The translations under genes were made by a program, and so were the position numbers. A stretch of 64,000 nt of DNA from Mesorhizobium shangrilense (GTDB lineage: Bacteria; Pseudomonadota; Alphaproteobacteria; Rhizobiales; Rhizobiaceae): the NCBI RefSeq assembly GCF_028826155.1, contig NZ_JAQGPN010000001.1:1555501-1619500 (forward strand), read 5' to 3'. The notes beneath the pieces were generated by a model, which saw nothing but the letters and a program-made list of their open reading frames with translations, made no database searches and was not told the origin of the DNA. This document shows positions 2,184 to 37,535 of the stretch, piece by piece. Position 1 is the first letter of the stretch. Every line of letters begins with the position of its first letter.

Positions 2184-2864
2184 TTAGACGGCAATCGCCG
2201 GCTGGCTCCAGCGCGCGGCGATGAGCCGGTAGGGAATCAGCGCGAACACGGCGATCAGGAGCTTGACGCCCAGATCGCCCAGCGCCCACGACACCCAGCG
2301 CGGCGCTTCCGTCGCCAGCATGCCGAACAGCGGCGCGGCCTCCAGCGCGAAGGCGTCCTCCGGTCCGACGAAGGAGAAGGCCGCCGCGAAGGCGATGGAG
2401 AAGAAGATCATGGTGTCCACCACAGATCCGGCGAGCGTGCCGAAGATCGGTGCGCGCCACCAGCTCTGGCGGCGCAGCCAGTTGAACACGGTGACGTCGA
2501 GGAGCTGTGCGGTGAGGAACGCCGCGCCGGATGCCACGGCGATCCGCACCAGCCGGTCAGCTGCGGTCTCGAACTCGATGAAGCCGTGGCGGAACAGGAA
2601 AGGCGGCACAACGATCGAGCAGACGACTGCCGTCATGAAGCCGACGAAGACGATCCGACGCGCCATCTGCGGCCCGTAGCGGCGGTTGGCGAGATCGGTC
2701 ACCAGGAAGGCGAATGGATAGGTGAAGGCGCCCCAGGTCAGGAGGTCGGCCAGGGACAAGGGCCCAAGCGTGCCCTGCACGGGGAACTGCACAAGCACGT
2801 TCGACGCCACGACGACGAGCGCCATGGCGACCACAAAGGGCACATAGATCGAGAAACGGAGCAT
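2184..2864 (-). CDS. Queuosine precursor transporter (YhhQ/QueT-type, VUT family)
   Basis: The 226-residue polytopic membrane protein has about six hydrophobic segments and the hallmarks of COG1738: SNVLVQFPV near the N-terminus, LTWGAFTYPFAFLVTDL, RRIVFVGF, LLDVTVFNWLRR and a GSVVDTMIFFSIAF segment. E. coli YhhQ imports preQ0/preQ1 (7-deazaguanine precursors) for tRNA queuosine modification; the same role is inferred here. The ATG is embedded in a preQ1-I riboswitch-like leader (2862-2890), which strongly supports the assignment. The gene lies downstream of rpmB on the same strand and three bases upstream of the spermidine synthase-like gene. Confidence 0.9.
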   Translation of the reverse strand: MLRFSIYVPFVVAMALVVVASNVLVQFPVQGTLGPLSLADLLTWGAFTYPFAFLVTDLANRRYGPQMARRIVFVGFMTAVVCSIVVPPFLFRHGFIEFETAADRLVRIAVASGAAFLTAQLLDVTVFNWLRRQSWWRAPIFGTLAGSVVDTMIFFSIAFAAAFSFVGPEDAFALEAAPLFGMLATEAPRWVSWALGDLGVKLLIAVFALIPYRLIAARWSQPAIAV

Positions 2865-2890
2865 TTTTTTAACCTGGGTTATGGAACCAG
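2862..2890 (-). promoter_or_regulatory. preQ1-I riboswitch-like aptamer overlapping the start codon of the queuosine precursor transporter
   Basis: Read on the minus strand, CUGG (2890-2887) pairs with CCAG (2877-2874) to form P1. Loop L1 starts UUC and contains UAAC, whose C (2878) sits where preQ1-I aptamers pair with the ligand. An A-rich tail (six A, 2870-2865) follows, and CAU in L1 (2883-2881) can pair with the AUG start codon (2864-2862) as the P2 pseudoknot. Stem, UAAC loop and UUAA tail closely resemble the small Thermoanaerobacter aptamer. The AGG at 2875-2873, the only candidate Shine-Dalgarno, overlaps the P1 3' strand. Ligand binding would therefore hide both ribosome site and start codon. 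Identification is by eye, supported by the downstream gene. Confidence 0.7.
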
Positions 2891-2950: not shown

Positions 2951-3247
2951 TCAGGCGGTGGCCTCCTCGTCCGCCTTCTTGGCGATCTGCTTCTTCAGCA
3001 GACGAGCGCGCGGCGACAGCTCTGCGCTGTCGGCTTTGGCGAGGAAGCCGTCGAGGCCGCCACGATGTTCGACCGAACGCAGGGCGTTGGCCGAGATGCG
3101 CAGGCGCACGCTCTGGTTCAGGGCTTCCGACTGAAGCGTGACGTTGACCAGGTTCGGCAGGAAGCGACGCTTGGTCTTGTTGTTGGCGTGGCTCACATTG
3201 TGGCCGGACATTACGGCCTTGCCGGTCAGTTCGCAGGAGCGGGACAT
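2951..3247 (-). CDS. rpmB: 50S ribosomal protein L28
   Basis: The 98-residue basic protein starts [20 protein letters not shown] and continues with [11 protein letters not shown], the conserved N-terminal half of bacterial L28, then [20 protein letters not shown]. The length is normal for Rhizobiales, whose L28 is longer than the E. coli form. Only one cysteine is visible, so this is the zinc-independent (C-minus) type. The start at 3247 has a GAAGG ribosome binding site about seven bases upstream. Two GC-rich stem-loops lie between its stop and the transporter leader (about 2898-2945). Confidence 0.95.
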
Positions 3248-37072: not shown

Positions 37073-37535
37073 GGCGATCCCCTAGGTTGGTTGGGGTCGT
37101 CCCCGGCATAGGCAATGGCACGGGTCGTCCCGTGCTTGGGTTGCGGTTACCGGAGACGCCGCCACTTTTCAAGCCCGGAAGCGGCCTCCGTCCGAGGAAG
37201 ACTTCGGCCAACTCGCATACCAAGAGCGCCGACTTGCCGAAGCGCACCCAAAGGGCTGCCGGAAGCCACGAACAGCGGTCGTCGGCAGAAGGGGGAGGCA
37301 GGCCCGCAGTGCGGTTTTCGAAGCCCTCCCGTGTGCGGCAACGGGCGCTTTGGGGGCGTTGACGGCTGTCCAGGCTTGTCGTTTCTGCGAAGATCGGACG
37401 CGCTCAATGCCTGCCGATGGGCTATGCGCTTCCGGACAGGTCGCGTGTCCTGCGCGGAACGCTGGCGCTCTCCGCCAGGGTCCTGCGAATGGTGCAGAGG
37501 CTACAGGCGACGCCAGTGGTGGTGGCGGCCAAAGC
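37073..37535. other. Gene-free stretch between hbd and atpB
   Basis: About 460 bases hold no convincing gene. Open frames on both strands lack ribosome sites and have biased, Arg/Ser-rich translations. I saw no tRNA, known riboswitch or clear terminator. The segment 37160-37350 is unusually structured in composition and could be a dispersed repeat or non-coding RNA, but I cannot show this. The atpB promoter presumably lies at its left end. Confidence 0.5.

Follow-up and report, generated by a model that had tools for sequence, protein, structure and literature searches.

The question raised by this locus is whether the start codon of a transporter gene can itself form one strand of the riboswitch that controls it. 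In the window, by which we mean the whole 64-kb stretch of DNA that was analyzed, the yhhQ leader reads CUGG UUC CAU AAC CCAG GUUAAAAAA AUG C on the minus strand from 2890 to 2861 (direct reading). A preliminary description of this DNA had drawn a minimal aptamer here with a 4-bp P1, a UUC...UAAC loop, an A-tract, and a CAU:AUG pseudoknot helix (P2), and we found its letters as drawn at 2890-2862. Our main reading, to which we assign a probability of about 0.77, is that these 29 nt constitute a translational OFF switch of the preQ1-I kind that has CAU:AUG as its P2 and binds preQ1 or a near relative. Comparison among relatives supports P1, the 9-nt loop, the A-tract, and the CAU:AUG P2; ligand binding and switching we infer. 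The features of the locus are the following.

2887..2890, minus strand: 5′ strand of P1, CUGG, by direct reading; CUGG/CCAG occurs in 138 of 141 motif loci.
2884..2886, minus strand: start of the loop, UUC (positions 1-3); its third base has a partner in codon 2 only where relatives carry G as the second base.
2881..2883, minus strand: 5′ strand of P2, CAU, the complement of the start codon.
2878..2880, minus strand: end of the loop, AAC; its last C is the counterpart of C14 in the E. coli crystal structure, the cytosine that gives preQ1 specificity (excerpts of PMC10622847).
2874..2877, minus strand: 3′ strand of P1, CCAG, by direct reading and from relatives.
2873..2875, minus strand: Shine-Dalgarno-like AGG, mostly within P1, by direct reading.
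2865..2873, minus strand: A-rich loop L3, GUUAAAAAA, by direct reading.
2862..2864, minus strand: 3′ strand of P2, which is the AUG start codon of yhhQ, from the reading frame and the protein-family match.
2861, minus strand: first base of codon 2, here C; it adds a fourth pair to P2 where relatives have G at loop position 2, and in the window, with its UUC loop, it stays unpaired.
2184..2864, stop included, minus strand: yhhQ, queuosine precursor transporter, 226 aa, from a TIGR00697 match.
2951..3247, minus strand: rpmB, ribosomal protein L28, the upstream neighbor of yhhQ, from a protein-family match.

The AUG within P2 is the earliest ATG, GTG, or TTG past the preceding in-frame stop, and it opens the 226-aa frame. 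With 105.7 bits, the encoded protein lies above the TIGR00697 cutoff of 50.95 for the queuosine precursor transporter, as the gene product had been named earlier, and it scored below the cutoff of the narrower NF008406 (122.8 bits versus 252). The candidate Shine-Dalgarno had been said to overlap P1, and the AGG at 2875-2873 does overlap the P1 3′ strand, eight bases from the AUG. At another place in the window (37092-37136, minus strand), a Guanidine-II (mini-ykkC) riboswitch was matched with 38.3 bits, above the gathering score of 32.

In a first search of relatives, YhhQ was found in 35 of the 37 genomes of the window's family and the motif in 33 of those 35, the exceptions being G007 and G009; in G008 the motif lies about 160 nt farther upstream than the match predicts. 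The leader of G008 (L129/L134) is a variant aptamer with CCGG/CCGG as P1, and its AUG opens a frame of 264 aa, extended at the N-terminus by about 50 codons absent from the window's YhhQ. When the family sample was larger, YhhQ was present in 373 of 394 genomes, and 360 of the 394 had, among the matches listed, at least one match to a search pattern leaving the loop and the start codon free, a count containing matches not all confirmed to precede yhhQ and some that are plainly due to chance. Among the 18 YhhQ genomes without a pattern match, five carry a variant motif (G487, G416, G512, G676, and G008), twelve lack the motif, and in one, G657, only a gene fragment was found. The named carriers are Sinorhizobium meliloti, a Rhizobium, and a Shinella; these are Rhizobiaceae, and the window's family is probably the Rhizobiaceae in a wide sense. 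The start-codon arrangement is common to members of the window's family. A separate observation concerns plasmid p3 of Rhizobium sp. NLR16a (L275), where rpmB and yhhQ with a riboswitch-like leader stand on a 489-kb record called a plasmid.

To score individual positions we used a scan of 164 loci (30 of them fetched by pattern) that required at least 4 P1 pairs and found the motif in 141. As landmarks the scan took the AUG and a loop beginning with U, ending with C, and having CAU as its positions 4-6. The second and third loop positions and the base that follows the AUG (+4) were left free; the constancy of CAU, AUG, and the loop U and C therefore proves nothing. A detector for P1, loop, and P2 together matched 68 of 69 main family leaders versus 29 of 3450 shuffled leaders, the latter being first-order Markov samples, so that the drawn aptamer stands above chance. 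For leaders from genomes without a match to the free-loop pattern, it matched 5 of 16 (one of which, L124, looks spurious) versus 20 of 800 shuffled. Leaders outside the family gave 0 of 9 within the same order (shuffled 2 of 450) and 0 of 53 from other members of the class (22 of 2650), while leaders of the group f48 gave 10 of 12 (1 of 600; these are of a CCG:CGG kind, and the P1 of L033 is doubtful) and gammaproteobacterial leaders 23 of 29 (14 of 1450).

The P1 hairpin is supported by compensatory changes. Its sequence is CUGG/CCAG in 138 of the 141 motif loci, CUAG/CUAG in two, and CCGG/CCGG in one, so the P1 covariation that the preliminary description had proposed to look for is present in relatives as double changes. 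We aligned 47 of 93 distinct leaders (every second one), and the drawn structure paired 93.6% of the cells in this alignment versus 18.9-51.7% when the partners were slid by 1-3 columns. When the alignment was shuffled 500 times, four of five covariation measures were reached by only 0 to 3 shuffles; the fifth, the number of further pair types (3), was matched by 500 of 500.

The evidence for P2 comes from the bases that the scan left free. With G at loop position 2, position 3 pairs with +4 in 82 of 82 loci (65 G-C and 17 C-G): the loop UGG is followed by AUG-C in 65 of 65 loci and the loop UGC by AUG-G in 17 of 17. With the loop UUC, +4 is A in 32 loci, C in 20, and U in seven, and never G (0 of 59). 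Leaving out the loci chosen by pattern gave the same picture without exception (UGG 51 and UGC 17, pairing in 68 of 68; A/C/U 24/16/5 after UUC), and when identical sequences are counted once, all 72 with G as the second loop base pair, where shuffling reached a maximum of 62 and equaled the observed count in 0 of 20,000 trials. We conclude from this dependence on the loop state that P2 is either CAU:AUG or a 4-bp helix, GCAU:AUGC or CCAU:AUGG; the window, with its UUC loop, has CAU:AUG alone, and the fourth pair is absent from 24 of the 47 aligned sequences. The second residue varies, being L, Q, R, or P where the loop has UGG and E, D, V, or G where it has UGC, so it is the base of codon 2 that is conserved and not the residue.

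We placed this pair on a tree of YhhQ proteins from the 82 of 141 motif loci with a whole gene, and the loop state changes at least eight times on it. Two sister loci (L123 and L125, support 94) carry the pair in both orientations, CCAU:AUGG and GCAU:AUGC. A sign test on independent pairs gave p 0.5, and it has no power because only two such pairs lie on well-supported branches. The AUG is invariant within the motif, besides being a scan landmark, so P2 has to draw its support from other groups and from the fourth pair stacked on it. Of the covariation anticipated earlier for CAU and AUG, variation in those pairs themselves is thus lacking within the family, and the fourth pair stacked upon them covaries perfectly, which supports reading the loop as pseudoknotted with the AUG. 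We also looked for GUG/CAC compensation in the GTDB contig collection: four matches had an intact P1 and a non-AUG start, none of them had CA at loop positions 4-5, their frames did not look YhhQ-like by eye, and that exact pattern yielded no GUG/CAC case. Other traits of class I are a loop that begins with U and ends with C and an A-rich L3, all seen in the window, and an H-type layout of a P1 hairpin with a loop-formed P2, seen through P1 and the covariation of loop and codon 2. The specificity C is preceded by A in 116 of the 141 loci, by C in 15, and by U in ten, which we count against our main reading; the matches to the free-loop pattern were inspected by eye only.

Loci in which translation begins elsewhere offer a natural experiment. 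Of 134 evaluable loci, 126 have the P2 AUG as their in-frame start, and in the other eight the best-scoring start lies downstream of it by 13 nt (six loci), 14 nt (one), or 4 nt (one), with the proviso that start calls on short fetched stretches rest on few residues. The CAU and the AUG, which are scan landmarks, are still present in all eight, so the pairing is apparently kept for the knot, beyond initiation. These loci bear on a reading that we hold unlikely though deserving of weight, in which control runs through the Shine-Dalgarno partly buried in P1 or through a distant block to the ribosome and the AUG pairing adds little repression. As that reading would have it, 130 of the 141 motif loci carry AGG at the end of P1 (112 have AGGA), and a type I preQ1-I switch is described in excerpts of PMC11625349 as repressing without appreciable Shine-Dalgarno occlusion. 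The eight loci with a displaced start, however, fall among ten loci (genera g24, g326, and g349) that have C after P1, in which the AGG is therefore removed, and in these the P2 strand reads AUGGA in 10 of 10 cases versus 2 of 131 in the others. This regularity suggests a possible Shine-Dalgarno at P2, a role in which the GGA of AUGGA could serve; the three such loci in the YhhQ tree form one clade. The signal held in P2 can apparently be a start codon or a Shine-Dalgarno. In one locus, L182, the P2 AUG opens a five-codon frame, MDPKT, the stop of which overlaps the next AUG as AUGA, and this frame is possibly a coupled leader peptide.

By the mechanism we propose for this switch, preQ1 or a near relative would occupy the space between the two helices, forming a Watson-Crick pair with the last loop C and being touched by the A directly before the AUG, and the A of the AUG would take the place in the ceiling that the Shine-Dalgarno A28 holds in E. 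coli. The ligand would lock P2 and bury the start codon together with part of the AGG Shine-Dalgarno, so that synthesis of the transporter would stop when the precursor is plentiful; with no ligand bound, P2 would open and translation would start. In this way the bound precursor probably masks the start signal, and import is shut off. The solved E. coli switch, which has the same loop layout and regulates the same gene, speaks for this proposal.

As for the ligand, E. coli TGT is matched closely in the window's genome, where QueF, the preQ1-making enzyme, and QueC are matched more weakly. We searched 68 genomes using the window's QueF as query and set aside G657 and 11 genomes without YhhQ (seven of which have QueF). 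A match was found in 25 of 39 genomes with the motif versus 2 of 17 without it (Fisher p 0.0004), a count in which the genomes are not independent, one decayed leader was entered as lacking the motif, and other forms of QueF would be missed. In genus g338, the two genomes that match QueF carry the motif, and the five that do not match it lack the motif. Six leaders from small genomes with no match to the window's QueF (L124, L126, L127, L133, L291, and L295) have lost the aptamer or show it decayed, and in most of them a Shine-Dalgarno-like or A-rich tail remains before the start. That the pseudoknot is real and the ligand is another 7-deazaguanine, preQ0 or queuine, we regard as distinctly unlikely. 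Fourteen of the 39 motif genomes, including three of the window's genus, lack a match to the window's QueF, and E. coli YhhQ carries preQ0 as well as preQ1, both of which speak for such a ligand; against it stand the association with QueF just given and the strong preference of the E. coli type III switch for preQ1 over preQ0, about 138-fold (excerpts of PMC10622847). Finally, a ligand-free reading, in which a fixed hairpin belongs to a conserved ribosome-binding region, would fit the high conservation around the AGGA-spacer-AUG site, but is highly improbable given a covarying loop/codon-2 pair that neither a plain ribosome-binding site nor a hairpin explains, a layout resembling that of a ligand-binding RNA of solved structure on the same gene, and the loss or decay of the motif in several small genomes without a QueF match.

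The Rfam preQ1 model RF00522 had no match in the window at its gathering score and none near the site up to E 10, nor did it match any of 101 family genomes searched. Rfam preQ1 matches were likewise absent from five relatives, from four loci of the Rhodobacterales type (L191, L192, L196, and L198), and from the E. coli type III leader. Because the crystallized E. coli switch is missed too, the missing match is uninformative: the lack of a covariance-model hit, named earlier as a refuting outcome, did occur, and it does not refute the aptamer. The Rfam preQ1 model appears to be blind to type III-like leaders, and a large group of leaders goes unreported by it. A family model built from the relatives and the window scored the site at 51 bits as the sole match in 64 kb, a score that is partly by construction since the window's leader was included. 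Plain, non-pseudoknot folding of the 46-nt site was not unusual (z 0.12), and in the window, the sequence folded, it formed one stem with upstream bases.

Type III preQ1-I was reportedly defined by McCown in 2014. Judged by its letters and layout, the window's leader belongs to the preQ1-I kind as a variant that uses the start codon, and it is related to type III. We built a gammaproteobacterial type III model from 23 leaders out of 29 gamma loci plus E. coli, leaving out L138, L149, L150, and L159 (no complete motif) as well as L154, L162, and L165. In the 64 kb, the window's site was the top of its three matches but a weak one (E 1.3). Among 25 relatives, 24 of them with the motif, the model found 11, with a best E of 0.02. 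In the other direction, the family model found none of 30 gamma loci at the leader, and we take such weak and one-sided searches as mild support at most.

Leaders of another kind precede yhhQ in the Rhodobacterales-type loci (L031, L032, L191, L192, L194-L196, L198, L199, and L277, the last from Pseudorhodobacter turbinis; also group f48), with loops such as UCGCCGCUAC. They share the small P1, a loop of the form U..C, an A-rich L3, and a loop-formed P2 but differ in having P1 CAAG/CUUG and similar, a mostly 10-nt loop, and a CCG:CGG P2 upstream of the start codon. These leaders probably make up another preQ1-I-like group.

The loop of type II preQ1-I is 10 nt long. The type II switch of T. 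tengcongensis resembles the window in its H-type pseudoknot and in the AC before the P1 3′ strand, whereas it differs in its partial occlusion of the Shine-Dalgarno (excerpts of PMC11625349). Occlusion of the Shine-Dalgarno is also what that source describes for translational preQ1 switches. In titles and the openings of abstracts on preQ1 switches, rhizobia, alphaproteobacteria, and start-codon sequestration, a preQ1 switch with the start codon as a strand is not described; the literature compared also includes parts of PMC10907184, PMC3766115, PMC11570991, PMC5372724, and PMC2258182, and McCown 2014 lay outside the comparison. Because no such arrangement appears in that literature, we take the start-codon form as a new variant of preQ1-I.

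We lean toward the view that Rhizobiaceae and their kin hold a separate preQ1-I subtype, in which the start codon would be a strand of the pocket, the A before the AUG would read preQ1, the A of the AUG would form the ceiling, the first base of codon 2 would be under selection for its pairing in the RNA, and the P2 signal would have switched between start codon and Shine-Dalgarno within the family while the letters of the pseudoknot stayed the same. If this is true, aptamer, expression platform, and coding sequence are one structure, and the RNA pocket constrains the second residue of the protein, the aptamer strand being AUG plus the first base of codon 2 in many relatives. It would also suggest a route by which one aptamer passes between Shine-Dalgarno and start-codon control.

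The closest relative is the gammaproteobacterial type III switch, with the start codon replacing the Shine-Dalgarno. The E. coli yhhQ leader reads UUGGG UUC CCU CAC CCCAA, followed by an A-rich stretch and AAGG. Excerpts of the crystal structure report (PMC10622847) give its P2 as U11-A28, C10-G29, and C9-G30, with A27 and U7 contacting preQ1, C14 pairing with it, and C8 joining A28-U11 in the ceiling; the same source describes type III as almost confined to gammaproteobacteria. Both leaders have an H-type pseudoknot, an A-tract before P2, and a place before yhhQ, which in the window begins at the motif. They also share a 9-nt loop of the form UUC..AC, UUCCCUCAC in E. coli and UUCCAUAAC in the window, with seven of nine positions alike. 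The window's loop follows the type III form UUC NNN NAC, from which relatives depart with UG for UU in 82 of 141 loci and with no A before the last C in 25 of 141. The window's family further differs in having a second loop state, UGS, in which P2 has 4 bp and extends into codon 2, and in its named Rhizobiaceae carriers, the type III leaders compared being gammaproteobacterial. P2 in E. coli is CCU:AGG with the Shine-Dalgarno, whereas in the window it is CAU:AUG with the start codon and the Shine-Dalgarno-like AGG lies at P1/L3. Loop and tail differ jointly at one P2 pair, C-G in E. coli and A-U in the window: where type III has an AAGG Shine-Dalgarno in P2, the window has AAUG, so that E. coli A27-A28-G29-G30 laid on the window reads A-A-U-G, and the last three bases are the start codon of yhhQ.
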